A program made the translations under genes and the position numbers. A stretch of 64,000 nucleotides of DNA from an uncultured Paenibacillaceae bacterium (GTDB lineage Bacteria; Bacillota; Bacilli; Paenibacillales; K13): the NCBI GenBank assembly GCA_913056365.1, contig CAJXLT010000005.1, forward strand, positions 186,001 to 250,000, in the 5' to 3' direction. Below are positions 45,805 through 62,300 of this stretch, one piece after another. Each line of letters opens with the position of its first letter. The stretch's first letter is position 1. The notes beneath the pieces were generated by a model. The model did not search any database. It worked only from the letters and a program-made list of their open reading frames with translations, and was not told the origin of the DNA.

Positions 45805-46962
45805 TCACCTGCTATCTACATGGTATGAGCGAATTTCCTGGGAAGCAATTAGCCATTCATGCATTTGTGTCGTGCCTTCGATGATTTCGTTAATCTTCGC
45901 ATCACGGTAATAGCGCTCGGCGGGATAGTCGCTGTGACAGCCGTTAGCCCCGTGAATTTGGACGGCATCGCTTGCGGCCTTCGTTACGATCGTGGACGCG
46001 AAGTATTTGGCCGTCCATGTCTCCATTATGCTGTCTGGATCTCCGACGTCCTTCAAGTAGCCTGCCTTATAGCACAACAGTCTGGCCGCTTTCACATTCA
46101 CCGTCATCTCCGTAATCATCTTCTGTATTAACTGCTTCTCTTGGAGCAGCTCTCCGAACTGCCGTCTCTGGCTTGCATAGTTCATAGATGCTTCGAGACA
46201 TGCCTGGGCCAGGCCGACACACCCGCAGGCGATCGTGTATCTTCCGTAGTCTAGGCTGAACAATGCTATATGCGACAAGCCCGTTCCGACTTGCCCGAGC
46301 AGGCTGGTAGTAGGAAGCGGACAATTATCGAATGTCAGTTCCGCGATCATGGAGCCTCTTGCGCCTAACAATCCTGTCATAGCCTTAGAAGTGAAGCCTG
46401 CACAGCTCCGTTCGACGAGGAAGGCGCTCGGCTTGCCGTCACATATGGCGAATAGGAGGAACAGATCGGCGATCTGGCCCATGGTGATCCATTTCTTCTG
46501 ACCATTCAGTATGTAGCCGTCATCTGTCAGCTCGGCTGTGGTCTCGATACTCTTGGCATCGCTGCCTGCATGCGGTTCCGTTAGCGCCAGTGCCCCGATT
46601 GCTTCACCGGATGCCAGCTTAGGCAGCCAGTCGTCCTTCTGTTGCTTCGTCCCCCATCTCAAGATAGCCAAGGCGACCATGCCATGAACGGTCAATAAAC
46701 TTCGGACCGAGGAGCATCCGCGACCGAGCTGTTCATTCAGCATGCCTTGGGTGACATAGTCCAGACCCATCCCGCCATACGCCTTAGGCAGCATAGCGCC
46801 TAGATATCCCGAAGCTCGTAAGGTCTCGAGCACTTCTGGACAGATTCGCTCTTCCTTGTCGTGACGACCAGCATAGGGGATGATGGCAGAATCGACGAAA
46901 GCTTGAAACTCGCACTGACGCTCATATTGATCGGCTGTGAATTCGAATTGGATAGCGATCAC
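45805..46962 (-). CDS. Acyl-CoA/acyl-ACP dehydrogenase, FkbI-like
   Basis: A 385-residue flavoprotein of the acyl-CoA dehydrogenase fold: ALALTEPHAGSDAKSIETTA (FAD/substrate loop), GQKKWITMGQIADLFLLF, SLDYGRYTIACGCVGLAQAC and the catalytic Glu362 in NEIIEGTTQ. Next to a carrier protein and a FkbK-like dehydrogenase it matches FkbI/AsmN-type enzymes that oxidise a carrier-bound glyceryl unit in methoxymalonyl-ACP synthesis. The GTG start has AGAAGGA directly before it. It is the last gene of the cluster, 18 bases after the carrier gene. Confidence 0.82.
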   Translation of the reverse strand: MIAIQFEFTADQYERQCEFQAFVDSAIIPYAGRHDKEERICPEVLETLRASGYLGAMLPKAYGGMGLDYVTQGMLNEQLGRGCSSVRSLLTVHGMVALAILRWGTKQQKDDWLPKLASGEAIGALALTEPHAGSDAKSIETTAELTDDGYILNGQKKWITMGQIADLFLLFAICDGKPSAFLVERSCAGFTSKAMTGLLGARGSMIAELTFDNCPLPTTSLLGQVGTGLSHIALFSLDYGRYTIACGCVGLAQACLEASMNYASQRRQFGELLQEKQLIQKMITEMTVNVKAARLLCYKAGYLKDVGDPDSIMETWTAKYFASTIVTKAASDAVQIHGANGCHSDYPAERYYRDAKINEIIEGTTQMHEWLIASQEIRSYHVDSR

Positions 46963-46980: not shown

Positions 46981-47223
46981 TTACTTCGCGGACGTCTTCG
47001 CTTCAATGAAGGCGAGCATACGATGAATCGTTCGGAAATTGTCCAAGCTCATATCCTCGTTCTCAATGACTATGGCAAATTCTTTCTCCAGATACATCAC
47101 AAGCTGCATGGCGAACAGCGAGTTGACGAAGCCGAGCGCGAATATATCGTCATCGTCATCCAAGTCCGGCTTTCGGATAAATCGCATGAGAAACTGTTTG
47201 ATCTTCGCTTTATTCTCTTCCAT
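46981..47223 (-). CDS. Stand-alone acyl carrier protein, FkbJ-like
   Basis: An 80-residue carrier protein with the phosphopantetheine serine in LGFVNSLFAMQLV (Ser35) and an acidic helix II typical of extender-unit carriers. It lies between FkbK-like and FkbI-like dehydrogenases, so it probably carries the three-carbon unit made into a hydroxy- or methoxymalonyl extender. AAGGAG lies upstream of the ATG. Confidence 0.85.
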   Translation of the reverse strand: MEENKAKIKQFLMRFIRKPDLDDDDDIFALGFVNSLFAMQLVMYLEKEFAIVIENEDMSLDNFRTIHRMLAFIEAKTSAK

Positions 47224-47275: not shown

Positions 47276-48124
47276 CTACTGCTCGTACGTGTAAAATCCT
47301 TGTCCGCTCTTCCTTCCATGCAACCCGGCATCGACCATCTTGCGCAGCAACGGACAGCACCGAAACTTCGGGTCCTGATACGCTTCATACAAGACGTTGA
47401 GAGAATGCACGACCGTGTCTAGGCCGATCAAATCTGCGGTTTCCAATGGACCCATAGCATGTCCGTAGCATTTCTTGAAGATATCGTCTACGTCGGTCGG
47501 TGTCGCAACCTGATCCTGCACCACGTATGCCGCTTCGTTCATGAACAGATGCGATATCCGGTTCGATACGAAACCGGGATAGTCGTTTACCACTATCATT
47601 TCTTTGCCCATCTTGCCCATCAGCTTCTCCACCGCTTGCACACAGGCATCAGACGTATGGTAGCCGCGGATGACTTCGACCGTATGCTTGGCCGGGACTG
47701 GATTCATAAAGTGAGTGCCGATCACGGATTCAGGCCGCTTCGTTAAGGCTGCAAGCTTCGTGATCGACATACACGATGTATTGACCATGAAGATGCATGA
47801 CGCATGACAGAGCTCGTCGATCGTCTCATATATCGCTTGCTTCACCTCCCATTCTTCCGTCGCATTCTCTATGACATAGTCGACATCCGCAAGCTCGTGT
47901 ACATCCATGCTAAATTGGATTCTCGCAAGAATAGACTGCGCGTCCTCCAGTTTATCCGAGGAGCCGAACAATGTGCGGAAGCGAAGCTGATTGCGCATTT
48001 CCTCCCTTGACCGCTCCAGCCGATCCTCGCCAACATCTATGAGCACGACTTGCATGCCTGATTGGGCGAGGCTTTGCGCAACGCCAGTGCCCATGACACC
48101 TGCACCGATAACACCGATTTTCAT
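47276..48124 (-). CDS. 3-hydroxyacyl dehydrogenase, FkbK-like
   Basis: A 282-residue NAD-dependent dehydrogenase of the 3-hydroxybutyryl-CoA type: Rossmann GAGVMGTG (residues 7-14), VIENATEEWEVKQ, catalytic GTHFMNPVPAKHTVEVI and YPGFVSNRI. In FK520, ansamitocin and zwittermicin pathways this protein oxidises the carrier-bound glyceryl unit's C3 alcohol. GGAGGTGA lies 5 bases before the ATG. It lies 52 bases from the carrier gene. Confidence 0.85.
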   Translation of the reverse strand: MKIGVIGAGVMGTGVAQSLAQSGMQVVLIDVGEDRLERSREEMRNQLRFRTLFGSSDKLEDAQSILARIQFSMDVHELADVDYVIENATEEWEVKQAIYETIDELCHASCIFMVNTSCMSITKLAALTKRPESVIGTHFMNPVPAKHTVEVIRGYHTSDACVQAVEKLMGKMGKEMIVVNDYPGFVSNRISHLFMNEAAYVVQDQVATPTDVDDIFKKCYGHAMGPLETADLIGLDTVVHSLNVLYEAYQDPKFRCCPLLRKMVDAGLHGRKSGQGFYTYEQ

Positions 48125-48218: not shown

Positions 48219-48980
48219 CTAAATCTGCAAATGCAAGTAATGATGATACACATCGTTGAACGGCGTATCCGAGTTCCAAGGCTTCTTGGAGCTAGTAAAA
48301 TGAATGATAGCAGGGTTCGGGATGTCCCTTGTATTCCAAAAGTGTGTCTGATAGTTCCAGCGCAGATCTAGTTGAAGCATCTTGTCATAGAGTACGAGGT
48401 TTAATGCATCTTGATCCATGAAGCTCAGCGTCTCCCCGCGCTTCATTAATACTTGCTTCAGTTGGGAAGGAATGTGATCTTGCCTCCACTTGTGCAAGTT
48501 GAGCACGAGGAGGCCTGCATTGAAATAACAATATCCCGATGGAATGATCAGCTCATCCTTCTTCCATACATTGATGAAATCTTCTACAGCTGCGACATGA
48601 TAATTACTAATATCCAGCTCCCAGATTTCCCTGAGGTCGTCCAGTACGACGATATCACAATCCAGATAGATCGCTTTGTCATCATGAGGTGAGAGCAAAT
48701 GCGGGATGTCAATTCGGTAGAAGGTCTCTCTGCTCACATATTGTGCCCCAGCGTCCATCGGGATGTCCGATATGTCCGGGTCTTGGATATTCGTAAATTC
48801 GATAACAGCCCCGAATGATGTGACCAGATCAGCAATGAGTTCCCGCCTAGCTGCAGCTATGTCCGAATGAATAATGACCACTCTGACATCCGACTTCCTC
48901 GACACATGCACCAACAATGATTTCAGCATGACATAGAGATGTGTAGCGTAATTGTCATTCGCTGCGGACACGATGATCAT
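48219..48980 (-). CDS. Family 8 glycosyltransferase
   Basis: A 253-residue GT-A-fold, retaining glycosyltransferase of family GT8: N-terminal IVSAANDNYATHLYVMLKSL, the metal/nucleotide-binding YLDCDIVVL (DxD at 107-109), FNAGLLVLNLHKWR, MDQDALNLVL and the C-terminal IIHFTSSKKPW. Relatives use UDP-glucose or UDP-galactose. In this cluster it probably glycosylates the product or a pathway intermediate. Its ATG overlaps the BtrH-like stop (ATGA). Confidence 0.9.
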   Translation of the reverse strand: MIIVSAANDNYATHLYVMLKSLLVHVSRKSDVRVVIIHSDIAAARRELIADLVTSFGAVIEFTNIQDPDISDIPMDAGAQYVSRETFYRIDIPHLLSPHDDKAIYLDCDIVVLDDLREIWELDISNYHVAAVEDFINVWKKDELIIPSGYCYFNAGLLVLNLHKWRQDHIPSQLKQVLMKRGETLSFMDQDALNLVLYDKMLQLDLRWNYQTHFWNTRDIPNPAIIHFTSSKKPWNSDTPFNDVYHHYLHLQI

Positions 48981-50590
48981 AAGCCACCTCCAGAATTAGA
49001 ATGGGAAGGAATAGCAGGCTCGGACGAGAGCATCGTTAGCGCGAAGATATGCATGCTCGGACATACCGGCAGCAGTAGCTTGCTCACTCGCTTGCCTCGC
49101 TTCAGCGGATAATGAACGGCGAAGATGCGCCCTTGGTCGATAGATGGCGTCTGACTGTTCTTGCGGTATATCGGATACGTCAGCACGACCGTCTCCCCGA
49201 ACTTCGGAGTCCATGCCCAATCTGTCAGTTGCACCTTAATGCTCTCCGCCTCTCCCTCCTCATCCTGCACCTTGAAGGTGCCGATCTGGTCCCCCCATTC
49301 ACCGCAGCCGAGCAGACAGATACCGCTATACGCTCGACTCTCCAGCTCAAGCGCTTGTCCTTGGCAAGCAATATTGTCGCAGCCTCTGCCGAGCGGTTCG
49401 TGCATCCGGTACGCGACATCTCCGACAGTCACGACATTCAGCTCTTCCGCTGCTTCATCTAGCAAGTAATGCTCTCCCCCGCCAGTCAGATCCGCGTCCG
49501 ACTGCTTCCCTCCGAATGCCTGGTTGTTATAGGAAGCAGACAGGTCGATCATGTGTGGCTGTTGCACGGCCTGTTCGTGGAGCGATTCCTCAACTTCTCC
49601 CGTTGCGCCTGATGACTTCGCACTGCGCTCCAGCACTTCCTCGAACGACAACGACAGGATGTGATCCGCGAACGATGCTGAGCGAACATAGGTCGCACAA
49701 CTGTCGTACGCTTGCTGCAATGCCGTCAGTTGATCTTCAACAGCGGATAGGGTTAACTTGCTTGTCATTAGAAATTTCCTCAAGGTGACCGTCAAGATAT
49801 CTGTCAGACTAGCAATCTCTGCGAATGCATCCGCGATCTCATCACGACATGCCAGCAATGTTACAAACTTCTGCATCATGAGTGCCGAGCCGGATAGCAG
49901 GCTGTAGGCGCGGCATATTCCCTCGATATAGGCATGCTCAGACGAGCCTTCCAGATGCCCCTTAAGCTTCGGAATAAGCGTGTGGAACAGCTGCCCGTGA
50001 TCCGCCGAGTAGTGCTTGTAAAAGGCGAGGTAGTTCGTCCGCAGTCTCTCATAATCAGCGGGTATGCGAGTGAAGTGAATGATCATTCGACTATCATGAG
50101 AGTAGGCCGTCGCTATAGCTTCTTCTTCGTATTCGAATAAGTCATAATACGTATGAACCTCGTCCATGATAGTATAAGCGTCTGTCCGCTCATCATAATC
50201 CGTGAGCATGACCCAATGGCTTTCGTGCCGATCGTTGTATTCGATTCGATGTGGGAAGTAGAAGGAATCTACGGATAGGAAGACAAGCTCCCCTGCTGCG
50301 AGCACACGACGAATCGTTGCTTTCAGATCGGTGAAGGTGCCGTGTAGAATATGGGGCTTGACCCCGATACATCTGAAGTCGTCCTCTGTCAGCACGTCGA
50401 ACTCATATCCCCATCGGGTTTTCCCGTTCACCACAAGCTGCTCGTACAAGTGCTGCGGCTCCTCGAGACAGCGGTACAGGAGCAGGTCGATAGGCACTTC
50501 TAGATGCTTCATATAACTATAAATTTCGGAATACAAGCAATTGAAGTATGGCTGATTATGCCGTTCGATCGCTCCACGCTTGCTCTTCAT
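48977..50590 (-). CDS. BtrH-like protein fused to a carbohydrate-type beta-sandwich
   Basis: A 537-residue soluble protein. Residues about 10-190 look like the papain-like BtrH N-terminal domain found in natural product clusters: a Cys early (YFNCLYSEIYSYM), an acyl-transfer-type His in RHESHWVMLTDYDE, and an Asp. A helical middle follows. Residues about 385-520 form a beta-sandwich (DNIACQGQALELE, GEWGDQIGTFKVQDEE, LTDWAWTPKFG, PSMHIFALTM), as seen at the ends of glycoside hydrolases. BtrH moves an acyl chain from a carrier protein to an aminoglycoside; a similar acyl transfer to a sugar is inferred. The gene overlaps both neighbours by ATGA. Confidence 0.5.
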   Translation of the reverse strand: MKSKRGAIERHNQPYFNCLYSEIYSYMKHLEVPIDLLLYRCLEEPQHLYEQLVVNGKTRWGYEFDVLTEDDFRCIGVKPHILHGTFTDLKATIRRVLAAGELVFLSVDSFYFPHRIEYNDRHESHWVMLTDYDERTDAYTIMDEVHTYYDLFEYEEEAIATAYSHDSRMIIHFTRIPADYERLRTNYLAFYKHYSADHGQLFHTLIPKLKGHLEGSSEHAYIEGICRAYSLLSGSALMMQKFVTLLACRDEIADAFAEIASLTDILTVTLRKFLMTSKLTLSAVEDQLTALQQAYDSCATYVRSASFADHILSLSFEEVLERSAKSSGATGEVEESLHEQAVQQPHMIDLSASYNNQAFGGKQSDADLTGGGEHYLLDEAAEELNVVTVGDVAYRMHEPLGRGCDNIACQGQALELESRAYSGICLLGCGEWGDQIGTFKVQDEEGEAESIKVQLTDWAWTPKFGETVVLTYPIYRKNSQTPSIDQGRIFAVHYPLKRGKRVSKLLLPVCPSMHIFALTMLSSEPAIPSHSNSGGGL

Positions 50591-50874
50591 ACATGCTCAC
50601 CTCTGGAAGAATCGTTCGTCTCCTGCTGATCTGCCAGCTTGCGCTGGATTAATTGATAGATGCTGTCTATCGATTGAAAATGTGTGGAAGACAGCTCATT
50701 ACCAGCGAACTCGACACCATAATGTTCCTCCAAGCGAACGAGTACGCCTACCATATAGACAGAGTGTACCCCTTGCGATGGAAGATCCTGATCCTCTGCG
50801 ATGGGCGGGTTCCCATCCACAACGCCTGAGACGATAGAGCAAATTTCCCGCTTCATGCTTTCCATTGTGTTCAT
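50587..50874 (-). CDS. Stand-alone carrier protein
   Basis: A 95-residue carrier with the phosphopantetheine site in PSQGVHSVYMVGVLVRLEE (Ser38). It differs from the usual G(G/L)DS motif, but the spacing and following amphipathic helices fit an ACP/PCP. Directly before a BtrH-like gene (ATGA), it is a plausible acyl donor for that enzyme, as BtrI is for BtrH. AAGGAGG lies 6 bases before the ATG. An in-frame ATG 9 bases later is possible. Confidence 0.75.
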   Translation of the reverse strand: MNTMESMKREICSIVSGVVDGNPPIAEDQDLPSQGVHSVYMVGVLVRLEEHYGVEFAGNELSSTHFQSIDSIYQLIQRKLADQQETNDSSRGEHV

Positions 50875-50901: not shown

Positions 50902-51711
50902 TTAACTGCTTGCACTGCTGTACTTGGATAAGCAGAACCTCCACACCTTGCGCGTTACTAGTAACATCACAATCGGCACCGCGAATACCCATATGCTTGC
51001 GAGCGTATCCAGTTCATCCATCATCGCAAGTACCGGAAAGTTCGTAATGACGAAGATCGGCAGCAGGAAGGTCCCGATTCGTTGAATCCAGCGACTGTAT
51101 ATCCCCATCGGCATGTTGTTGAAATCCCAGAACTTATCGGTAATCTCGATCAGCGATTGTGTCTTGATAATGTAGAACGACAGCAGCATCGGCAGCAGAA
51201 ATAGCGCATACATGAGGACGATGCCGCACACGATGAGCAGCAAGAACAAGCCAATCTCTTGCGGACCGCTCTCCAGCCCCAATCGCCTCCATGCCATGAC
51301 TACCATCGACGTGCCGACGATAAAGTTCGGAATCGGGAAGGAGAAGTTAATGCGGCGCAGTGTGACCATGAATTGCAACGATACAGGCTTCGTCATCATC
51401 ACATCGAGCAGACCGCTCTGAATGTGCTGCGACAGCTGGTAGAAGTTATCCATGAAGAAGAGCACATAGAACCCGGTCATAATCATGTACGTCCCGATGA
51501 ACAAGAGCACATGGTCGGGGGATAGACCGTTAATATCTACACCTACTTGGTAAATCAGGATGACGTACAACAGCTTGGCGAATGTGAAGACACACTCCTG
51601 AGCGATGCTGATGACGAAATTCATGCGATACTCCATCTGTGCGATCAGGCAATTCTTGACGAACAATCCGTAAATGCGCATATGCTTCAACATTTCGCGT
51701 AATAGATACAT
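50902..51711 (-). CDS. ABC-2 family exporter permease
   Basis: A 269-residue protein with six hydrophobic segments, similar to the DUF990/ABC2_membrane_6-type permeases (RMNFVISIAQECVFTFAKLL and YSRWIQRIGTFLLPIFVITN). It is paired with the similar permease upstream and the ATPase at 52502-53509. The cluster's own product is the likely substrate. A weak GGGG-type site lies upstream. Confidence 0.85.
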   Translation of the reverse strand: MYLLREMLKHMRIYGLFVKNCLIAQMEYRMNFVISIAQECVFTFAKLLYVILIYQVGVDINGLSPDHVLLFIGTYMIMTGFYVLFFMDNFYQLSQHIQSGLLDVMMTKPVSLQFMVTLRRINFSFPIPNFIVGTSMVVMAWRRLGLESGPQEIGLFLLLIVCGIVLMYALFLLPMLLSFYIIKTQSLIEITDKFWDFNNMPMGIYSRWIQRIGTFLLPIFVITNFPVLAMMDELDTLASIWVFAVPIVMLLVTRKVWRFCLSKYSSASS

Positions 51712-51717
51712 ATCGGC

Positions 51718-52533
51718 TCAGCCCCCAACCGCTACGTATTTTTTGATGCCATAGCGCCAGCAACTGCTCGCAACTAACGCAGCTACCACTGTCCATATTG
51801 CTTGGATCACAAGCCCCGTGCCAATCTCTGCCTCGCTAATCTTCCCGCTCCATATGTTGACCGGAAAGTAGATCGTATACGGAAAGGGCAGCCACTGCAG
51901 GACACGATTGACAGCCGGACCGAAGATATCGAGCGGGAACACACCGCCGCTCATAATGTTCGTCAACAGGTTGAAGCCGATAAATACGGCCCACACCTCT
52001 GTCATCCAGAATGCCAATAAGCTTAATAAGTAAAAGATCATGCCGTTCAGTATGAGAGCGAACAGCAGTGAAATGCCAAACCAGACGATGCGGTCGTCGG
52101 ATAACGAGAGAGTGCTCTGCCACGAGAAGCCGAGCAACAGCGCGAGCAGCAACAGGGTGAATGCCGCCAATTGAATACTCTTCGTGCCATAGAAGCACAT
52201 CATGCGGTACCAGAAGTAACTGATCGGCTGCACAATGAATTTATTCAATCCGCCATTCTTGATATCTCCGGCGATCTCGTATTCGAAGCCAGTCGAGATT
52301 AATCGACCGACGACTATCGCCATAATCGTGTAGGCAATCATCTGGTCGTGTGTGTAGCCGTACACCTCGCTCCCAGGCGCAGCTGTATAGACCGCATTCC
52401 AGATAAATAGCTGTATCATGAGCGGGAAGACGCCGCTTACGAGACCGAGCCAGAAGTCTGTCCTGTAAGCCATCGCATTCTGTACGCCGAGACCGTAGCT
52501 CTTAAGATATTTGCCCGCCGACTTCAAGCGCAT
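51718..52533 (-). CDS. ABC-2 family exporter permease
   Basis: A 271-residue six-helix permease of the same family as the one at 50902 (YRTDFWLGLVSGVFPLMIQL, GGLNKFIVQPISYFWYRMMC). The ATG at 52533 follows AAGAAGGAA. It overlaps the ATPase gene by 32 bases. In-frame codons further upstream lie inside the ATPase gene and were rejected. Confidence 0.88.
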   Translation of the reverse strand: MRLKSAGKYLKSYGLGVQNAMAYRTDFWLGLVSGVFPLMIQLFIWNAVYTAAPGSEVYGYTHDQMIAYTIMAIVVGRLISTGFEYEIAGDIKNGGLNKFIVQPISYFWYRMMCFYGTKSIQLAAFTLLLLALLLGFSWQSTLSLSDDRIVWFGISLLFALILNGMIFYLLSLLAFWMTEVWAVFIGFNLLTNIMSGGVFPLDIFGPAVNRVLQWLPFPYTIYFPVNIWSGKISEAEIGTGLVIQAIWTVVAALVASSCWRYGIKKYVAVGG

Positions 52534-53509
52534 CACGTTCCTTCTTGTAGATTTCCGACAATCCGTCCTCGATCGACAGCTCTTCGACGTTGAAATCAAC
52601 GATCGGCAGCACGTCCAGCACCGCTTGGAGCACGGTCTTGACCTCCTGCTTCTCAACCTCAAGCAGCGCCTGCCCTTCACCGCTCTCGACAACCCGACCG
52701 TAGCGGCTGAGCGTCACTTCATCGACAGGCACTCCGAACTGAAGACGCAGACGCTTCCTGTCCCCGACGAGCCGGTTCATCTTGCTCAGTTCACCGTCGA
52801 AGACGATGGAACCGTGATTGATGACGACCGACCGCTTGCACAAATTTTCAATATCGGCCATGTAGTGGCTCGTGAGCAAGATCGTCGTCTTCGTCTGCTT
52901 GCTGTAGGTTTTAATAAATTGCCGAATGTTCTTCTGTGAGATTAAGTCGAGACCGATCGTAGGCTCGTCCAAGAACATGATCTTCGGTCTGTGAATCAAC
53001 GAGGCGATTAATTCAATCTTCATTCGCTCTCCGAGCGACAAGCGGCGAACCTGCACGCTGAGCAAATCGCGGACATCCAACAGTTCAGCCAGTTCATCGA
53101 GCGTAGCTTGAAACGCCCTATCGCTAAGCTCATAGATGCTCTTGTTCAACGCTAGTGACTCATTGGCAGGCAAGTCCCACCACAGCTGGCTCTTCTGCCC
53201 CATCACGATCGAGAAGTTCATCTTGTACTCCTTCTTGCGCTCCCACGGAGTGAAGCCCATGACGCGCGCGGTGCCGGACGTAGGATGGAGAATGCCGGAC
53301 AGCAGCTTCAGCGTCGTCGTCTTCCCGGCTCCGTTCGGTCCAAGGAAGCCGACGATCTCACCTTCCTCCACCTCGAAGCTTACGTCGCGAACAGCGTGCC
53401 GGATGAGCTGCTTCCGATAGAATAAGTTACGGAGCGAATGGCGAAGCCCTGTCTCCTTCTCATAGTAGGTATAATCTTTCGATAATCGGTCCACCTCAAT
53501 AATTGCCAT
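52502..53509 (-). CDS. ABC exporter ATPase
   Basis: A 335-residue ATPase with Walker A GPNGAGKT (57-64), LSLGERMK signature and Walker B IMFLDEPTIGLD, in the subclass paired with DUF990-type permeases, with a C-terminal domain of about 90 residues. AAGGAG lies 7 bases before the ATG at 53509. The gene overlaps the KS-ACP stop by 14 bases. Confidence 0.92.
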   Translation of the reverse strand: MAIIEVDRLSKDYTYYEKETGLRHSLRNLFYRKQLIRHAVRDVSFEVEEGEIVGFLGPNGAGKTTTLKLLSGILHPTSGTARVMGFTPWERKKEYKMNFSIVMGQKSQLWWDLPANESLALNKSIYELSDRAFQATLDELAELLDVRDLLSVQVRRLSLGERMKIELIASLIHRPKIMFLDEPTIGLDLISQKNIRQFIKTYSKQTKTTILLTSHYMADIENLCKRSVVINHGSIVFDGELSKMNRLVGDRKRLRLQFGVPVDEVTLSRYGRVVESGEGQALLEVEKQEVKTVLQAVLDVLPIVDFNVEELSIEDGLSEIYKKERDALEVGGQIS

Positions 53510-55706
53510 GCTTCCACTCCTTACGGTTGTGTGTGTGCTCCCCGCATTCCAACGCATATGCGATGAAGCTGTCCAGCGTCGGATACCGCTCCATATCGGT
53601 CGCTTTCACGGGAAGTCCGAGCTCTTCCATCCTCGCCTCCACTTGGATCGCTAGGACGGAATGGCCGCCCAGCGCGAAGAAATCATCGGTTGCCGCTACA
53701 GCTGCTACACCGAGCACCTCTTGCCATATGGCAGCGATGGTCTGCTTCAGTTCTTCCTCTGTATGATGCGCTCTCTTCTCCGGGAGGCTGCCGACTTGCC
53801 CCCACTGACCTGAATTGGCTGGTATGTCGATCCAGCACCTGTAAGCACGGAACGGATACGTAGGGAATGGAACGCGGCTCCGCTGCTCATTCCTGTACAA
53901 TCGTTCCCACGGTATGTCTGTTCCGGCTGCGAAGGCATGTGCGATTCGCTGCAGCAGCGCGGTCGAAGTACAATCAGTTTGCCGCCATTCCTCGATTAGC
54001 GTGCACATAGCGGTTGTGCTAAGCTTCTCCCCTGATTGACGAGACAGCTCTTGCTTACCAGTCTCTAGATAGCGCTCCATCTGCCGGACTATATCCTCCT
54101 GCGTGCTTCCGACGAATGCGGCACGGTATGCATATGCTCCTCTTCCTGTATTGGCTGCATAGCATAGGTCAGGCAGTCGGGCATCCGAATGCGTTGTGAG
54201 CCACTCGATAGCAACGCGAACATAATCGCTTAATGCATCCGGTTCCTTCGCTGACAGCACCAACAGCTCATCAGGTCGCCCTGCTTCGCGGGCATCGTTC
54301 GTTCGCTCAGGAGGCGCTTCCTCGAGCACGAGGTGGCAATTCGTTCCGCTGAAGCCGAAGGAGCTGACACCGCAGCGCAACGGACCACCGTCAGTGCGCC
54401 AATCCCGCAATTGGTCATGGACATACACAGGCGAGTCTTCGAAGCGAATGCTGCGATTCGGACGATCGAATCCTAATGTTGGCGGCAACTTCCGCTTCCT
54501 CAAGCACATTACGGCCTTCACCAGACTGGCAATACCCGACGCGCCGTCCAGATGTCCGATGTTGCTCTTCACAGAGCCAATCGCGCAACTTTGTCTCCGG
54601 CTCGTATGCGCACGGAACGCTCTCGTAATGCCGTCAATTTCAATCGGATCGCCAAGCTTCGTCCCGGTGCCGTGCGCTTCGATGTAAGTAATCGTCTCGG
54701 GATGCACGCCTGCTCGCTTCCATGCCTCTTCCAGCAGGCGTTGCTGAGCGGGCGCATTCGGTGCGGTGAGACCGATGGATGTGCCGTCATGGTTAGTTGC
54801 ACCGCCTTTGATAACGGCATAGACATGATCGCGATCGCGAAGCGCAGTCCGCAGCGGCTTAAGCAAGACCGCGGCAGAGCCTTCGCCCCATACAGTGCCG
54901 TCCGCTGCATCATCGAACGTACGCGTCCGGTCACCCGCCGTTTCAATGCCCAGCTTGAAGTCCTTGTCTACCGGGACAATATTGAGCTTGATTCCACCGG
55001 CTAACGCATAGTCGCATTCTCCATGCTGCAAGCTGCTGCATGCTGTATGCACCGCAACGAGTGATGAGGAGCAGGTCGTATCGATCGTCAGGCTCGGACC
55101 TTGCAGATCGAGCAAGTGGCTGAGTCGGCTTCCGATAATCGAAGCAATATTACCCGGCAGCGCGACAGCCATCTGCTCAGGATGCAAGCGCGAGACGATC
55201 ATGCCGTACGTCGGCCAAGCGTTGTAGCCGACGAACACGCCAGTCTTCGTTCCGGCGAGCGCCTTCCCGCCGTAGCCTGCATCCTCCAGCGCTGCCCATG
55301 CGGTTTGCAGGAATACGCGCTGACACGGGTCTGTCAGCTTAGCCTCGGCAGGCGGCATCGCGAAGAACGGGTAATCGAAGTCAGCAATCTCACTCAAGTA
55401 GCCTGCTTGCGCATAACGCATAGAACCGCCTGTCAGCTGATCGGCAAGCGCTCTGCGTTGCGCGGGAACTTCGCGAATGCAGCTTGCCCCGCTAGCCAGC
55501 AACTGCCAATACTTCTCGTAATGATCGGCAAGCGGCAAGCGAACCGCCATGCCGATAATGGCAATGTCTTCTTGCTCTGTCTGTTCCGGTTGCTGCGTCT
55601 GTTCAGACTGTTGCATACGCAGCAGCTTCACAAGCTGAACACCTGTCGTTCGATCGATCGTTCCTTCCGCTATTTGTCTGAGCACGAATTCCAATGCCGC
55701 GCTCAT
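53496..55706 (-). CDS. Trans-AT polyketide synthase module, KS-ACP
   Basis: A 736-residue protein. A short N-terminal linker (to residue 45) precedes a ketosynthase with catalytic Cys212 (DTTCSSSLVA), His345 (EAHGTGT) and His385 (KSNIGHL), so it is condensing. The post-KS linker runs to about 630 (LPTYPFRAYRCW-like end) with no acyltransferase; the carrier domain has LGGHSVLA with Ser683. Absence of an AT, with a linker in its place, is the mark of a trans-AT PKS. The start overlaps the preceding PKS stop (ATGA). Confidence 0.93.
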   Translation of the reverse strand: MSAALEFVLRQIAEGTIDRTTGVQLVKLLRMQQSEQTQQPEQTEQEDIAIIGMAVRLPLADHYEKYWQLLASGASCIREVPAQRRALADQLTGGSMRYAQAGYLSEIADFDYPFFAMPPAEAKLTDPCQRVFLQTAWAALEDAGYGGKALAGTKTGVFVGYNAWPTYGMIVSRLHPEQMAVALPGNIASIIGSRLSHLLDLQGPSLTIDTTCSSSLVAVHTACSSLQHGECDYALAGGIKLNIVPVDKDFKLGIETAGDRTRTFDDAADGTVWGEGSAAVLLKPLRTALRDRDHVYAVIKGGATNHDGTSIGLTAPNAPAQQRLLEEAWKRAGVHPETITYIEAHGTGTKLGDPIEIDGITRAFRAHTSRRQSCAIGSVKSNIGHLDGASGIASLVKAVMCLRKRKLPPTLGFDRPNRSIRFEDSPVYVHDQLRDWRTDGGPLRCGVSSFGFSGTNCHLVLEEAPPERTNDAREAGRPDELLVLSAKEPDALSDYVRVAIEWLTTHSDARLPDLCYAANTGRGAYAYRAAFVGSTQEDIVRQMERYLETGKQELSRQSGEKLSTTAMCTLIEEWRQTDCTSTALLQRIAHAFAAGTDIPWERLYRNEQRSRVPFPTYPFRAYRCWIDIPANSGQWGQVGSLPEKRAHHTEEELKQTIAAIWQEVLGVAAVAATDDFFALGGHSVLAIQVEARMEELGLPVKATDMERYPTLDSFIAYALECGEHTHNRKEWKHGNY

Positions 55707-58700
55707 GATGCGTCACCGTCCCGATCTTTCCGCAGCATGGACATCGCATTGTCCACCGACAATTCGCCTGAAGACAGCTGCTGAATGAGCCTATCAAGCT
55801 CCCCGTCATCGTGTGACTCTGACGAGTCTAGCTGTTCATCTTCCCCGGCTTCCTGCCAGATGGAGTCGATATGTGCCGACAGCTTCGCTATCGTCGAATA
55901 CGAGAATAGATCCGGCAATTGCACAGCCCCCGGATACTGCTCATCCACTCGCGCATGCACCTTCAGCATCAAGATGGAATTGCCGCCGATATCGAAGAAC
56001 TGATCCTCGATATCGTATTGCTTGTAGCCGAGCACTTCATGCCAAATTTGCGCAACGGTCTGCTCTGTACGGGTGAACGCTTCTCTTCCCGTAAGGGTAA
56101 TGGTGATGTCGGCTGCTACATGCTGCTCTGCAACCGCTGCCGTTCGTGCTTCATCCCCTTCCGCTTGCTCCATGTACGCATGAAGTCCGATGTCTCTTGC
56201 CATCAACCGCATGAATGACTCATCTGATCGCGAAGGCTTTCCGATGACAACCGCTGATTGCCCAGTCTGCAACACACGCTCGAAAGCGTCCATCGCCTCA
56301 GTGTTGGAAATCGCATGCAGCACACCGCTGGCCAACTCTCCCCCCGCATGAACCGCCATTCCTTGTTCATGCCAGGCTGGCCAGTTCAAGCAGCTCGTAC
56401 CGGGTGTATGCAAGCTGCGTTCCTCGCAATAAGCATCGAGGAACGCATTCGCCAGGCTGTAATCTATCTCACTGGCAAGTCCGACATGCGAGGCGATGCT
56501 AGAGCTGCACAAGAAGAAGTCCGGTTCATCCTGCTTCGTTGCCATATCGATGTACATCGTTCCGTACACCTTCGCATGCAACACTGCGCGAATCGCCTCA
56601 TTCGACTTCTGCAGCAATGTGCCTGCTTCACTTGCAATGCCTGCACAATGAATAACACCTCGTATCGGACCATATGCGCGTCGAATGTCATGCAGAACAG
56701 TCTGTACGGAATCGAACGAACCGATATCGGCACGATGGAGCGAGACGGACGATCCAGCCATTCGGATCATCTCCTGCGTCTGCTCAGAAGGCGCTGTGTG
56801 GCGACTGATGAAGGCGAGATGTATCCGCTGTTGATCGGACATATACTTGGCGATTTCTTGCGCAATCGCACCTCCGCCGCCTGTAAGGACGTACACGCCG
56901 TTCTCGCGTAGAGGCAGCTCACCTGCTGCCTCATCCTGAAGCGGACGGATAGCGAACGCGTATCGTTCTCCCCGGCGAAGCGCAACGGTCGGCTTCTCCA
57001 TCGGTCCCGCAAGTTCGCGGACAAATTGTTCGTCCGTCGTATGCGCATCGCCATCTACCGTGCGGATGACAACATTCGGACACTCAATCGGGAAGGCATT
57101 GCCTAATGTATGGAGCAGCCGATGCTCGGGCCGGAGGTCACCCTCCTCCCGAGTCACCGCGTAGCCAAGCTGTGTCACTATGGCGAGCTCCGGATTGCGA
57201 CCGATACGTCTGGCAAGCGTTCGGCACAGCTCCAGCAGCGGGAGCAAGCCATGATTCACGCCGTTCTCTACTCGAACGACTAACGATTCTGTGCTGTCAT
57301 CGGCAGCAGCCATTCCGGAGAGGAACACCACTTGATCCAGCTCGGCGAGCGGAAGCGACTCGCTCCACGTTCGGTAATCATCATGCTGCGGGATCTGCGC
57401 CATTGCCACCGAATCGGATTGCGCTTGCAGTCTTCTGATGATACGCAGAGAGGCTTCACTGCCGTCATGAATCGCGAGCCGACGCCAGCTTGACGGTTCA
57501 AGCTCCGCGCGCTGCTCCAAGCGTATCCATGCAGGCTCCCAGAGCGGGACTGACGGTAATTCGGCAGGTTGTATCCAACAGCGGCTCGGTGCGAACGGGT
57601 AACCCGGCAGCCTCGTACGTCTGTACGCTCTCCCTTCATATAACGCCTCCCAGGAAACTGCCTCCCCTCGCGCATAGGCGGCGCAAAATGAGCGAAGCGA
57701 CTCGTCAGGAATCTGCTCCGTTGCTACGACCAGTCCAGCCCCAGGCACAATCGTATCCATCGGATCAGACGCCAGCTCTCCTAACCGATCCAGCATGTCC
57801 TGTGCATCAAGACCGATTACAACAAGGCGATAATCATAATGAGTGCGGGCTGTATGCAAGGTGGTACATATGGCTTCCATCGACTCGTGAGCCGATGCGG
57901 ACAACCAGGCAGCGAATTGACGTACCGTTCTGCGAAGTGCAGCTTGTGACTTCGCGGACAACGTCATGACGTGGGGAGATGCGGGAGGTGACAGCTCCGG
58001 TTGCGTCTCCGCTGCAGTCGGCTCCTCTTCCAGCACGATATGGCAATTCGTCCCGCTGAAGCCGAATGAGCTAACGCCGCAGCGTCTCGGCACGCCCTTC
58101 GGAACGTTCCACGGTCTAACGATATCGTTCACGAATACGGCCGTATCCTCGAACGCGATACTCCGATTCGGTCGCTCGCAGTGCAGCGTAGGCGGAATTG
58201 TCCGATGCTGCAACGCCAGCGCCGCCCGCACGAAGCCTGCCAGACCAGCACAGCCGATCAAGTGACCGACATGCGGCTTCACTGAGCTAACTGCGCAGAA
58301 TTGCTTCCTCCGCGTGAAGCGGGAGAATGCTTGGCGGATAGCCTCGATCTCAATCGGATCGCCGAGCTTCGTACCGGTGCCGTGCGCTTCGATATACGTA
58401 ATCGTCTCCGGATCAATGCCTGCCTGCCGCCATGCTTCCACGATGACCTTCTCCTGAGACAATACGTTAGGCGCTGTCAGGCCAATCGAATGTCCATCTT
58501 GATTCACGGCGCTTCCTTTGATAACCGCATAGATGGCATCGCGATCCCTTCGCGCTTGCTGAAGCGGCTTGAGCAGCACGGCGCACACGCCTTCGCCGGT
58601 AACTGTACCGTCCGCCCGATCATCGAACGTCCGCGTCTTGCCAAGCGTGGATTCGATCCCCACTTGACCGTTCAGGTCGATCGGCCACACATCGAGCCGC

Positions 58701-59374
58701 AGCCCGCCAGCTAGCGCCAGCTCGCATTCTCCCTTCTGGATCGCGTCGATAGCCGTATGAACGGCAACTAGAGAAGACGAACAAGATGTGTTCACGATCA
58801 TGCTCGGACCGAGCAGGTCGAAGTAGTGCGCAACCCGCCCTGGGATCATCGAGACGAGGTTGCCAACATGAGCCTCCTTGTACGATCTCGGGGCTGCTTC
58901 CAAGATACGGGTCGCATACGTGTACGGCTCTTGATCGTATCCGACGAATACGCCCGTCTTGCTGCCTGCCAGCTTGTCCATCGTATAGCCGCCGTCTTCG
59001 AAAGCGTGATAGGCGGTTTCGAGGAACAGTCGCTGGTGCGGATCCATCCATTCCGCCTCCTTGGGCGAAATTCCGAAGAAAGCATAATCGAATCGATCGA
59101 TGCGGTCCAGATAGCCTTGGCGAATAAATTGCCATTCGTCACGCTCCATACGTCTTGCTCTCGTGTACTGCTCCGCCTCCATTCTCCTCGCATAAGGAAG
59201 CTCGCGCGTCGCTTCTCTGCCATTCACTGCATTGTCCCAGAATGACGAAGGGTTGTCCGCAAGAGGGAAGCGCAATCCGATACCGATGACGGCAATTTCC
59301 TTGCCTGTTTCCGCTCGCTGTGCAGATTCCGGTTGTCCCATCATTCGCTCCATGAAGCTATTTCCCATACGCAT
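55703..59374 (-). CDS. Trans-AT polyketide synthase module, KS-KR-ACP
   Basis: A protein of 1223 residues. KS domain about 25-450: Cys at about 198 (NTSCSSSL), EAHGTGT, and VKPHVGHL in place of the usual KSNIGHL (the catalytic His is kept). A linker, then a ketoreductase about 645-1010 with TGGGGAIA for NADPH, FLCSSSIASHVG and DYSLANAFLDAY (catalytic Ser and Tyr). Carrier Ser at about 1133 (IGGNSILM), then a C-terminal linker. No AT. ATG 59374 follows AAGGGGGT; it overlaps the NRPS stop. Confidence 0.93.
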   Translation of the reverse strand: MRMGNSFMERMMGQPESAQRAETGKEIAVIGIGLRFPLADNPSSFWDNAVNGREATRELPYARRMEAEQYTRARRMERDEWQFIRQGYLDRIDRFDYAFFGISPKEAEWMDPHQRLFLETAYHAFEDGGYTMDKLAGSKTGVFVGYDQEPYTYATRILEAAPRSYKEAHVGNLVSMIPGRVAHYFDLLGPSMIVNTSCSSSLVAVHTAIDAIQKGECELALAGGLRLDVWPIDLNGQVGIESTLGKTRTFDDRADGTVTGEGVCAVLLKPLQQARRDRDAIYAVIKGSAVNQDGHSIGLTAPNVLSQEKVIVEAWRQAGIDPETITYIEAHGTGTKLGDPIEIEAIRQAFSRFTRRKQFCAVSSVKPHVGHLIGCAGLAGFVRAALALQHRTIPPTLHCERPNRSIAFEDTAVFVNDIVRPWNVPKGVPRRCGVSSFGFSGTNCHIVLEEEPTAAETQPELSPPASPHVMTLSAKSQAALRRTVRQFAAWLSASAHESMEAICTTLHTARTHYDYRLVVIGLDAQDMLDRLGELASDPMDTIVPGAGLVVATEQIPDESLRSFCAAYARGEAVSWEALYEGRAYRRTRLPGYPFAPSRCWIQPAELPSVPLWEPAWIRLEQRAELEPSSWRRLAIHDGSEASLRIIRRLQAQSDSVAMAQIPQHDDYRTWSESLPLAELDQVVFLSGMAAADDSTESLVVRVENGVNHGLLPLLELCRTLARRIGRNPELAIVTQLGYAVTREEGDLRPEHRLLHTLGNAFPIECPNVVIRTVDGDAHTTDEQFVRELAGPMEKPTVALRRGERYAFAIRPLQDEAAGELPLRENGVYVLTGGGGAIAQEIAKYMSDQQRIHLAFISRHTAPSEQTQEMIRMAGSSVSLHRADIGSFDSVQTVLHDIRRAYGPIRGVIHCAGIASEAGTLLQKSNEAIRAVLHAKVYGTMYIDMATKQDEPDFFLCSSSIASHVGLASEIDYSLANAFLDAYCEERSLHTPGTSCLNWPAWHEQGMAVHAGGELASGVLHAISNTEAMDAFERVLQTGQSAVVIGKPSRSDESFMRLMARDIGLHAYMEQAEGDEARTAAVAEQHVAADITITLTGREAFTRTEQTVAQIWHEVLGYKQYDIEDQFFDIGGNSILMLKVHARVDEQYPGAVQLPDLFSYSTIAKLSAHIDSIWQEAGEDEQLDSSESHDDGELDRLIQQLSSGELSVDNAMSMLRKDRDGDAS

Positions 59375-62300
59375 GTTCACCCCCTTGTCGTACTTGTTCA
59401 GCCAATATCGTTAACATGTCGCCAAATCGTGAAGACAGCGCCTTAGCCTTGTCCTCCATATCTGTTGATACGAAGACGGCTTGCACTTCTCCCTCGTCCA
59501 GCACATACAAGGCGATAGCAATCTCTCGCTCTTGCACTCCCGGCTCCGCCTGCAGCATAGCAAGCGTAACGCCCTCTGCTAGAGCGGTCACCTTCGTTGC
59601 ACGTCCAATATGGCGGTGTTGCATCTCGCGCACCCCATCTGCAGCGCTCTCGATTTCTTCAAGCAGCAGGAGATGTGAGGTTGAGGCATCACCTGCGAAG
59701 ACGGCAAGCGGAACAGACGATTGAGAGGTAAGCTCTGCAACCATGTAAGCGAAGGCAAGCACATATAGCTCGAATGGCTCTGCACCGATACTAGCGGCAC
59801 TCTCTGCCATAGCGCGACTCGTTGCGCGAGGAAGCAAGGCACGTGCACGGTGATGCGACTGCGGCTGCACACGCCGCGTCAGCTCGACTGCGAGCTTCTC
59901 TACGGTAGGATAGGCGAACAAGTCGGCAATATGTGTCAAATTCGGATACAAGCCTTCGAGTTTGGCATGGACGCTCATCAGCATGATCGAATCTCCGCCA
60001 GCCTCGAAGAAGTGATCGCGAATACCGAAGCTGCTCGTGCCAAGCACTTCCTCCCACATGCCGTATACGATCTTCTCCATGTGCGTTGTCGGGCGTGCAG
60101 CTGTGCTATTACCGGAACTAGGTATATGCGGTTCAGGCAACTGCTTCCGGTCTACCTTGCCGTTGGCAGATAAGGGCAGCCGTTCAAGCATAGCAACGCG
60201 TGACGGAACCATGTATCCCGGAACGCGAGCCTTAAGCGCAGCCATCACTCGCTCCGCTAGCAGTCCTCCTGCAGCTTGGCTTGATTCGGAAGCTTCGGAA
60301 GTGGAAGGCACCCAGTAAGCAGCCAGGTACGTACGACCGTCATTGTCTTGCTTGTCCACAACTACTGCATCCCGCACCTCAGGCTGCTGCATGAGTATAC
60401 TTTCTATCTCACCTAGCTCCACCCGGTACCCGCGAATCTTGATCTGATGATCCCTGCGCCCGAGAAATTCCATGTACCCTTCCTTGTGCATGACACCGTA
60501 ATCTCCGGTGCGATACAACGGCCCCAGCTCGGGGTGCCGGATGAAGGCTAGCTGCGTCTTCTGTTCTTCACGCCAATAGCCCTTCGCTAGTCCCGCCCCG
60601 CCGATCGCGAGCTCGCCAGTGACCCCAACTGGACATATCCGACCGTCCTCGCTTAGCACATACCATTGCTGATTCCCTAACGGATAACCGTACGGGATAG
60701 ACCGCCAGTGCTCATCAATAGTCGTAACCGGATAGTAGATGGACCAGATCGATGCCTCAGTTGCCCCGCCCAAGCTGTACAACGCAGCATGTGGGAACCG
60801 CTGTCTCACCGTGCGCGCAAGCTGCAGCGGTATCCAATCCCCGCTCAGCATTACCGTGCGAAGTCCGGGAAGCTGTTGCCCTTCTGCTGGTTCTGCTGGC
60901 AGCACCTCCAGCAGCGCAGCGAACAAGGCAGGCACGGAGTTCCATACGGTACATTCGCCAGCCGCTGCCGTGCGCAACACATCGGGCATATCGCGCGGGT
61001 CTTCGATCACGATGACAGCGGCCCCTGCTGCAAGCGTGCCGAACCAATCGAACACAGACAGATCGAAGGAGAACGAAGAGAGCGCTGCGACGCGGTCTTC
61101 TTCCGTTATGGCGAACCTATCAATTACGTCCAACAGTGTGTTCGATGCAGCCTCATGCGTCACTACAACCCCCTTCGGCTGACCGGTGCTGCCCGAAGTG
61201 TAGATGATGTAGGCGATCCCATCTGCACAGCTGTCCTGGATAAGCTCCGCGTCAGGCTCCAGCTGCGGTAGCTGCGGCTCCTCCGCTGCTGCATCCACTA
61301 CATAGCGGCATTCGCTGTGCGAGACGATATAGCTTCGGCGCTCCTCGGGGTAATCCGGATCGATCGGCACGTAGCAGGCCCCTAGCATCAGCACGCCTTG
61401 CATGGCCGCAATCGTCGCATAATGGCGATGCCCGATCACGCCAACGGCATCTCCAGGCTGAATCCCTTCGTTCTGCAGCTTGACGGCGAATTGCCGTGAC
61501 AGCTCGTACAACTCGCCATACGTCACATGCCGCTGCTTGTCGATCACCGCGATTCGTTCCGGATGACGCTGAGCACGCTCTGCGAACAATTGATCCAGCG
61601 TTGCCCGCATCAGCCGCACTCGCGACGTCTCGTTGTAGCATGCGTAGAGCTCTGCGTGCGACGGTGGAAGCGGAATCGGTTGTGCATAGCCCTGAACTGC
61701 CAGCTCCTCTAATATTCGCTTGAATGCTGCGAACATTAGATCGATGACTTCCTTATTGAACAGCTCCGATACGTAGTCCCAGCTTAGTTCAACGACACCG
61801 TTTCGTTCAGTCAGCTGGAAGTCAATGAACACTTGCGACGTCTGGCTCAATCTCATCTTCGCCTCGCCTGGCAAGGAACCCGCTTCACCGGCACCTTGGA
61901 AATCCTGCGAGAGTAGACTCGTGAAGACGTACGGCATGATCGCTCCTTTCTCATAGTTGCGCGCCTTCGCAAGCTCGCGGATCATCTCCGTTCCGTCGTA
62001 GTGGCGATGCTCCAACGCTTCTGCAATCGTCCGATGCACATAGAACGCCTTGCTCCAGAAGCTTTGCTGTGAAGACCACTCCAGCCCGAGCAGCATAAGC
62101 GAAGTGAAATCACCGACCAGCTCATGCACGTCAGGGTGGAACGGATAGCGATTGAACACCGTTAGATTGACCGCCAGCCGCGGCTGATTGGACCAGCGCG
62201 ACAGCACTTCCGCGTATGCGGCACAAAAGACAGCGGACGGCGTAACAGTGTGCTGCGCAGCTAATCGCTTGATCTGTTGCCAGTCTGCATCCGCCAATAC

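Follow-up and report, generated by a model that had tools for sequence, protein, structure and literature searches.

What does a protein do that joins a papain-like domain to a beta-sandwich and is encoded between a carrier protein and a glycosyltransferase, in an assembly-line cluster without a visible thioesterase? The question is raised by a 537-aa fusion protein from an uncultured Paenibacillaceae bacterium, encoded in a stretch of 64,000 nucleotides (positions 186001-250000 of contig CAJXLT010000005.1, here contig C5, which stops at 259263); this whole stretch is referred to as the window. The locus is an antibiotic-type cluster of nonribosomal peptide synthetase (NRPS) and trans-acyltransferase (trans-AT) polyketide synthase (PKS) genes. 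We consider it probable that the fusion protein is a BtrH-type cysteine acyltransferase (an amide or ester synthase) that depends on a carrier protein and is built in a single chain with a beta-sandwich of the AziU2 type. The initial annotation of the window had described three genes that overlap or nearly touch, with the two-domain gene directly after a carrier gene and before a gene of glycosyltransferase family 8 (GT8). Both the contact and the order are borne out (Table 1): the genes lie head to tail on the minus strand, and the carrier/fusion and fusion/GT8 junctions are both 4-bp ATGA overlaps. A Shine-Dalgarno-like purine run is located 5' of each of the three genes.

The N-terminal domain had been called BtrH-like, and profile comparison agrees. 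PF14399 (BtrH_N) is matched over residues 88-143 only, with 30.8 bits against a gathering cut-off of 29.7. BtrH_N domains are papain-like, BtrH itself is an acyl carrier protein (ACP):aminoglycoside acyltransferase (PMC10318531), and the BtrH family is listed among the papain-like transacylase candidates (PMC2922099; these and all further sources are cited from the portions available). Cys and His, together with Asp, are present at the conserved papain-like positions. Among the 45 rows of the N-domain tree, Cys18 is found in 43 (the other two are gapped), His125 in 44, and Asp143 in 43, with Glu in the other two. In this tree, the window protein groups with the fusions of Paenibacillus kobensis and Paenibacillus sp. 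P25 (support 100/100), and this trio is nested in a 17-row clade (100/99) with 13 BtrH_N-only proteins and one domain linked to a peptidyl carrier protein (PCP). Outside the 17-row clade are 21 other fusions, three AziU3 homologues, two ACP-linked domains and two BtrH_N-only proteins.

One of the 13 BtrH_N-only proteins in the clade (L029, at L117:9168-10136) has 322 aa and no AziU2-like domain. Its neighbours are carrier, ATP-grasp, pyridoxal phosphate (PLP) decarboxylase, luciferase-like monooxygenase, gamma-glutamylcyclotransferase-like, 3-dehydroquinate (DHQ)-synthase-like and PIG-L genes, a set which, judged by the functions of the Btr genes, we take to be butirosin-type. A hidden Markov model (HMM) of the three N-domains scored this protein at 101 bits and all 13 BtrH_N-only proteins at 87-155, against 10-20 for the three AziU3 homologues and at most 15 for the 21 other fusions; this contrast is biased, as the BtrH_N-only rows were found by N-domain similarity and the other fusions mostly by their C-domain. 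The reverse test, which starts from the L117 protein alone and not from the window protein, gave 51-75 bits for the three fusions, at most 8.5 for the 21 others and 8-14 for the AziU3 homologues. With an AziU3 HMM, the three fusions reached 6-23 bits and other fusions up to 46, and in the N-domain tree the three fusions and AziU3 lie on opposite sides of a starred branch. Tree and scores thus separate the N-domain from AziU3 and group it with the BtrH-like protein of the butirosin-type L117 cluster.

For the roughly 180 residues of the C-terminal part, Pfam gives no match at E 1, the carbohydrate-binding families included. A PDB search with the single sequence returned AziU2 over residues 346-522 (2e-7) and, weakly, AziU3 over residues 92-132; with a profile of 19 relatives, the values were 1e-20 for AziU2 and 5e-5 for AziU3. 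AziU2 is the closest solved relative of the domain. The initial annotation had seen a beta-sandwich of the type found on glycoside hydrolases (GH). The domain is of the AziU2 type instead, yet the guess was a fair one, because AziU2-like domains occur in tandem on such enzymes: the domain HMM detected four copies on a GH28-like protein (L062:6405-10520) and two on a GH76 protein (L066:10145-12394), with E 6e-19 to 3e-24. These repeats are homologous to the C-domain of the fusion but form a separate clade (100/98), and Cys409 is missing from all six. AziU2 and its homologues (3/3) carry E-R-R at positions 431-433, which we would guess to bind sulfate; R-R occurs at this place in no fusion.

A papain-like fold of the N-domain is predicted from the Pfam match, profile comparison and a low-confidence model. 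Foldseek placed four AziU2 chains on top for the full low-confidence model (E 1e-8 to 2e-7), with CBM35 and CBM61 far behind (7e-3 to 8e-3). For the weak N-domain model it listed AziU3, CtaG and CcbD first, with phytochelatin synthase listed as well (E 8e-5 to 7e-3 for the CcbD- and CtaG-type matches). Of the 50 rows shown by VIA-align, CcbD, AziU3 and CtaG matched over the greatest length (224-244 residues, Z 8.8-10.2, root-mean-square deviation 11-12.6), but unrelated helical bundles reached the same Z, the helical half of the model matching many of them. Since low-confidence models can give meaningless matches, these results were given limited weight and were counted only where the sequence agrees.

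BtrH, from butirosin biosynthesis, shares with the fusion the N-domain clade of its L117 relative, the Cys/His/Asp triad and an adjoining carrier gene; the ATP-grasp and decarboxylase loading genes that adjoin at L117 are not beside the window gene. The lincosamide enzymes CcbD and LmbD resemble the fusion in the weak-model fold match and in a Cys-His-acid triad. In them, the carrier-bound acyl group is loaded onto Cys and passed to a sugar amino group in a Cys-His-Glu ping-pong mechanism (PMC12945683). CcbD differs in that it gave no sequence match to the fusion N-domains at E 10, its known acceptor is an amino sugar, and the available text of the same source mentions no AziU2-like part. CtaG of closthioamide biosynthesis, for which acyl transfer from one carrier to another has been proposed (PMC6772006), is likewise a weak-model fold match, and variants of its Cys11, His128 and Asp144 are named in PDB titles. 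It shows no sequence match to the fusion N-domains at E 10, and with about 310 residues it has no room for an AziU2-like domain.

Homologues of both halves are found in AziU3/AziU2 (PDB 7wuw, 8gs1), the azinomycin aziridine synthase, which acts on a sulfated amino acid (PMC12559475, PMC9570651) and is called a novel fold in a figure legend (PMC11168924). AziU3 (7wuw_C/8gs1_B) keeps the aligned Cys, His and Asp as residues 33, 137 and 153, counted along the PDB construct. AziU3 and AziU2 are two separate subunits, in contrast to the single chain of the window protein. AziU2 was matched in five Streptomyces plasmid records, three of them with annotation, and at the three annotated loci the AziU2 gene comes first, followed by an AziU3 homologue annotated as 'BtrH N-terminal domain-containing protein'. 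As these homologues exceed the PF14399 cut-off (3/3), AziU3-type proteins belong to the BtrH_N family. One of the loci (L069) contains LysW-type gene(s) and a sulfotransferase, the latter within 9 kb of the AziU2/AziU3 pair, whereas neither was seen at the window; for L070 and L071, no sulfotransferase is listed in the stretches shown, where the gene table is incomplete.

The fusion fits the CcbD/LmbD scheme because of its conserved Cys-His-Asp, the adjoining carrier, a sandwich that possibly holds the acceptor, and the glycosyltransferase that follows. In the mechanism we favour, an acyl or aminoacyl chain would arrive as a thioester on the stand-alone carrier ACPb or on the last ACP of the ketosynthase (KS)-ACP protein. 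Cys18 would take the chain from the carrier, forming a ping-pong acyl-enzyme, and His125 and Asp143 would activate an incoming amine or hydroxyl that resolves it. The C-terminal sandwich may shut the pocket and hold the acceptor. Given the GT8 gene and the possible CcbD-like fold, a sugar acceptor, as the initial annotation had suggested, is plausible, and the GT8 enzyme might glycosylate either the acceptor or the product. The protein would carry out release or side-chain transfer where no thioesterase is visible: the three KS proteins and the NRPS protein lack a thioesterase match (Pfam scan, E 1e-4), and PF00975 has seven matches in the genome, none of them on contig C5. The hybrid protein suggests an unusual release or transfer of the finished chain. 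As a separate observation, both NRPS-bearing proteins (L011:15162-19055, L011:5359-12879) continue for about 170-250 residues after the last PCP, a stretch that matches nothing in Pfam at E 1e-4.

The cluster forms one run on the minus strand, in the order NRPS, FkbH, trans-AT, KS-ketoreductase (KR)-ACP-condensation (C)-adenylation (A)-PCP, KS-KR-ACP, KS-ACP, three ATP-binding cassette (ABC) genes, ACPb, fusion, GT8, 3-hydroxyacyl-CoA dehydrogenase, ACPa and acyl-CoA dehydrogenase. The trans-AT, FkbH and NRPS genes lie outside the window, next to the KS-KR-ACP-C-A-PCP gene (L011), and none of the three KS proteins has an AT match in the Pfam scan at E 1e-4. The zwittermicin pathway makes hydroxymalonyl with the ACP ZmaD and the FAD-dependent ZmaE (PMC4207774). 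The FkbH protein (TIGR01686, 7e-82), the two dehydrogenases and ACPa probably form a hydroxymalonyl-ACP set. The other enzymes of this set we take to correspond to the remaining steps of that pathway. The proteins of the ABC trio are 47, 43 and 60% identical to those of the fusion-bearing cluster of Paenibacillus sp. P25. Outside its own genome, the GT8 protein is matched best in the L054 cluster (47%, 1.2e-80) and next at 42% (1.3e-56) among 384 genomes searched. The L054 cluster (L054:3100-17203) encodes a KS-ACP-C-FkbH-PCP-BtrH_N protein, a trans-AT, a carrier and an NRPS beside this GT8 relative. An LPMO_10 + CBM5/12 protein is encoded near the end of the window cluster (42137-43150).

Table 1. 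Features of the fusion locus in window coordinates.
Feature	Position	Strand	Basis
BtrH_N/AziU2-like fusion protein, 537 aa	48977..50590	-	PF14399 4e-7; AziU2 1e-20 by profile; two near-full-length homologues, 41% and 37% identity
N-terminal papain-like (predicted) BtrH_N domain + helical region, residues 8-310	49661..50569	-	domain envelope, tree, triad counts, HMM scores, weak-model fold matches
Triad codons of the fusion	Cys18 50537-50539; His125 50216-50218; Asp143 50162-50164	-	triad count over 45 rows
C-terminal AziU2-like beta-sandwich, residues 342-522	49025..49567	-	AziU2 PDB/profile matches, Foldseek, domain HMM, C-domain tree
Stand-alone carrier ACPb, 95 aa	50587..50874	-	PF00550 (PP-binding) 1e-5, above cut-off; 4-bp overlap with fusion gene
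GT8 glycosyltransferase, 253 aa	48219..48980	-	PF01501 (Glyco_transf_8) 1.9e-46; 4-bp overlap with fusion gene
3-hydroxyacyl-CoA dehydrogenase-type gene, probable hydroxymalonyl-ACP set	47276..48124	-	PF02737 5e-55, PF00725 2e-32
Second stand-alone carrier ACPa, probable hydroxymalonyl-ACP set	46981..47223	-	PF00550 2.8e-8
Acyl-CoA dehydrogenase-type gene, probable hydroxymalonyl-ACP set	45805..46962	-	PF00441 3.6e-41
ABC transporter trio: two ABC2_membrane_6 permeases + one ATPase	50902..53557	-	Pfam
KS-ACP protein, 736 aa, ends after ACP; no AT, no thioesterase match	53496..55706	-	Pfam scan
KS-KR-ACP protein, 1225 aa, no AT match	55703..59380	-	Pfam scan
KS-KR-ACP-C-A-PCP protein, 2506 aa, continues beyond window end	59358..64000	-	Pfam scan

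The fusion architecture was unfamiliar to the initial annotation, and a search of other genomes shows that it is not confined to this locus. At E ≤1e-10, some part of the protein is matched in 41 of 392 genomes of the order. Distinct BtrH_N + AziU2-like fusion loci number 24, in 16 genomes, a count that leaves out fusion matches with only short surrounding sequence or none; the idea of a unique fusion was rejected on this count. The protein thus unites a predicted BtrH-type carrier-dependent acyltransferase with an AziU2-type domain in an architecture that is itself not rare, while this N-subtype was found with this C-domain in three genomes only, those of the window, P. kobensis and Paenibacillus sp. 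P25. A scan of named genomes gave the same two further genomes; it relied on two peptide patterns and may have missed others. Viral contigs and a single-protein scan of genome contigs gave no useful match, and plasmids searched with the whole protein yielded two weak half-length matches. No description of a BtrH_N/AziU2 fusion was found in the available portions of the open literature searched. In P. kobensis (L047/L048), an ACP and a DUF1702 gene are found some 8 kb away from the fusion gene, and KS- and FabG-like genes (the last assigned by eye) follow farther out.

A carrier domain lies within about 10 kb at 18 of the 24 fusion loci, weakly so at L059 (E 8e-5) and L061 (5e-4), according to an HMM built from 12 carriers, several of them taken from these same loci. 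Loci with BtrH_N but without the AziU2-like domain have a carrier in 5 of 11 cases. Pieces with neither domain lack one in 11 of 15, and the four that have one (L011, L051, L101, L103) are extensions of the same clusters; the pieces surveyed are not a random genome sample. In one case the whole fusion occurs in cis: a 2742-aa megasynthase (L053:10093-18321) ends in PCP-BtrH_N-AziU2-like. The position after the last PCP is where a thioesterase usually sits. BtrH_N alone follows a carrier in cis at the end of carrier-bearing proteins at L054, L014 and L105. The latter two loci come from two genomes of the genus to which the window belongs and have in common a PKS that terminates in ACP-BtrH_N (L014:9972-17286, L105:3247-10522), followed by radical SAM- and TIM-barrel-like genes (by eye) and a separate BtrH_N/AziU2-like fusion. 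A carrier and a PLP decarboxylase accompany a fusion at L050 (P25), L056 and L108, with an ATP-grasp gene also at L050 and L108 and a luciferase-like monooxygenase also at L108. Butirosin-type or butirosin-like side-chain gene sets were seen at L117:5258-15539, L108:466-10522 and L114:6823-14133; the L108 set ends in a BtrH_N/AziU2-like fusion, and the BtrH_N match of L114 is below the Pfam cut-off.

Several points weigh against the acyltransferase assignment. We know of no activity for any BtrH_N + AziU2-like fusion, and the characterised pair, AziU3/AziU2, performs ring closure despite the same Cys/His/Asp. Two AlphaFold2 jobs with three sequences each were both poor (predicted local distance difference test, pLDDT, 47 with predicted template modelling score, pTM, 0.31; pLDDT 57 with pTM 0.43), and in the second, residues 1-78, Cys18 among them, were modelled at pLDDT <50. 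A PDB profile search with the three N-domains found AziU3 only, at E 0.6, and neither CcbD nor CtaG at E ≤10. In the visible cluster, no gene obviously loads ACPb. Contig C5 breaks off 209 bp 5' of the first visible NRPS gene, and a thioesterase could therefore sit beyond the end. Six of the 24 fusion loci have no carrier nearby (L013, L016, L063, L104, L106, L111), and at L050 and L108 a further BtrH_N protein from outside the clade (-1 and 27 bits) is encoded beside the carriers, so that the acting protein there may be either one. Finally, the fusions at L015, L060, L064 and L112 each have a PF00975 thioesterase gene of stand-alone size within 15 kb; the fusion is therefore not always paired with a missing thioesterase, which speaks against a general role as thioesterase substitute. 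The fusions at L013:9546-11159 and L016:8600-10234 are paralogues in the window's own genome.

These four separate thioesterase genes also count against the alternative that survives best, namely that the protein is a hydrolysing or cyclising thioesterase or a proof-reading enzyme, which passes its chain to water or to an in-chain group with no separate acceptor. The same triad and carrier neighbourhood would serve such an enzyme, which would also suit the lack of a PF00975 match on the contig and the thioesterase position taken by the L053 didomain. However, the acyl-transferring relatives BtrH and CcbD are transferases (PMC10318531, PMC12945683), and the tree and scores place the N-domain with a BtrH-type protein. 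We regard hydrolysis or cyclisation as unlikely.

Improbable, too, is a shuttle between ACPs, in which an FkbH-derived glyceryl or hydroxymalonyl unit would be moved between stand-alone carriers or onto a hydroxyl, in place of chain release. Such a role would match the FkbH gene of the cluster, the location of the best GT8 relative beside a single protein that carries C-FkbH-PCP-BtrH_N (L054), and L113, which brings together FkbH, a carrier, an acyl-CoA dehydrogenase and two BtrH_N genes. It is at odds with the trans-AT gene, as the zwittermicin AT takes hydroxymalonyl from its ACP (PMC4207774), and with a BLAST search using the FkbH of this cluster, which found none at 1e-8 in the stretches of P25 and P. 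kobensis read. At L113 (9682-19039), the two BtrH_N-only genes are arranged in tandem.

Still less probable is ring closure by a single-chain counterpart of AziU3/AziU2, in which a neighbouring amine and a leaving group would be aligned to yield an aziridine or some other small ring. Each half does have its homologue in this aziridine synthase, which acts on a sulfated amino acid. Against this reading, no PF00685/PF13469 sulfotransferase was found within 50 kb on the same contig of any of the 24 fusions (16 genomes, plus G182), a result limited by draft contig ends. On contig C5, the nearest one is found at a distance of about 220 kb, and whatever the cluster contains past the contig end is out of view. 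An azinomycin-type precursor gene was absent from the cluster genes scanned, which were open reading frames of 60 aa or more; LysW is shorter than 60 aa. In addition, the N-domain is BtrH-type, not AziU3-type, and the E-R-R of AziU2 has no counterpart in the fusions. With no such sulfotransferase found and with an N-domain of the BtrH type, aziridine synthase was dropped as the principal interpretation. Least probable of all is a non-catalytic partner that merely holds carrier and GT8 together, as might be read from the gene overlaps on either side and from a function that is itself a prediction, since the triad is near-invariant across the 45 rows.

The two domains of the fusions may have been joined more than once. 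Forcing all 24 fusions into one N-domain clade lowered the log-likelihood by 87 and was rejected (p 1e-58), for a group that was named after the tree had been seen and with several rows long or odd in composition. The C-domain tree instead joins the three proteins to the remaining fusions (24 rows, 93/89, below star) and sets them apart from both AziU2 and the GH copies; a grouping of the three with AziU2 gave p 0.052 and is neither supported nor clearly rejected. Because a single N-domain clade is rejected, the simplest reading of these sequence comparisons is that the same architecture was assembled a second time, or that the N-domain was exchanged.

More tentatively, BtrH_N + AziU2-like might be an unrecognised offloading didomain of NRPS and PKS assembly lines, a thioesterase substitute that is either free-standing or placed in cis behind a PCP, as in L053. 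Its AziU2-type, lectin-like lobe would choose a glycosylated acceptor. AziU3/AziU2 would then be a branch turned to ring closure, and the architecture would have formed repeatedly or had its N-domain exchanged. This wider idea of a general release unit, with AziU3/AziU2 in the same family, may be the more interesting part. It would link two groups of enzymes not joined in the available portions of the literature found, the papain-like acyltransferases that draw on a carrier (BtrH, with CcbD and CtaG included by fold) and AziU3/AziU2. If it is true, genes annotated as 'BtrH N-terminal domain-containing' in biosynthetic clusters would be worth considering as chain-release or acyl-transfer enzymes, the Cys kept by AziU3 would present a testable puzzle, and an assembly line without a visible thioesterase would gain a concrete release enzyme.

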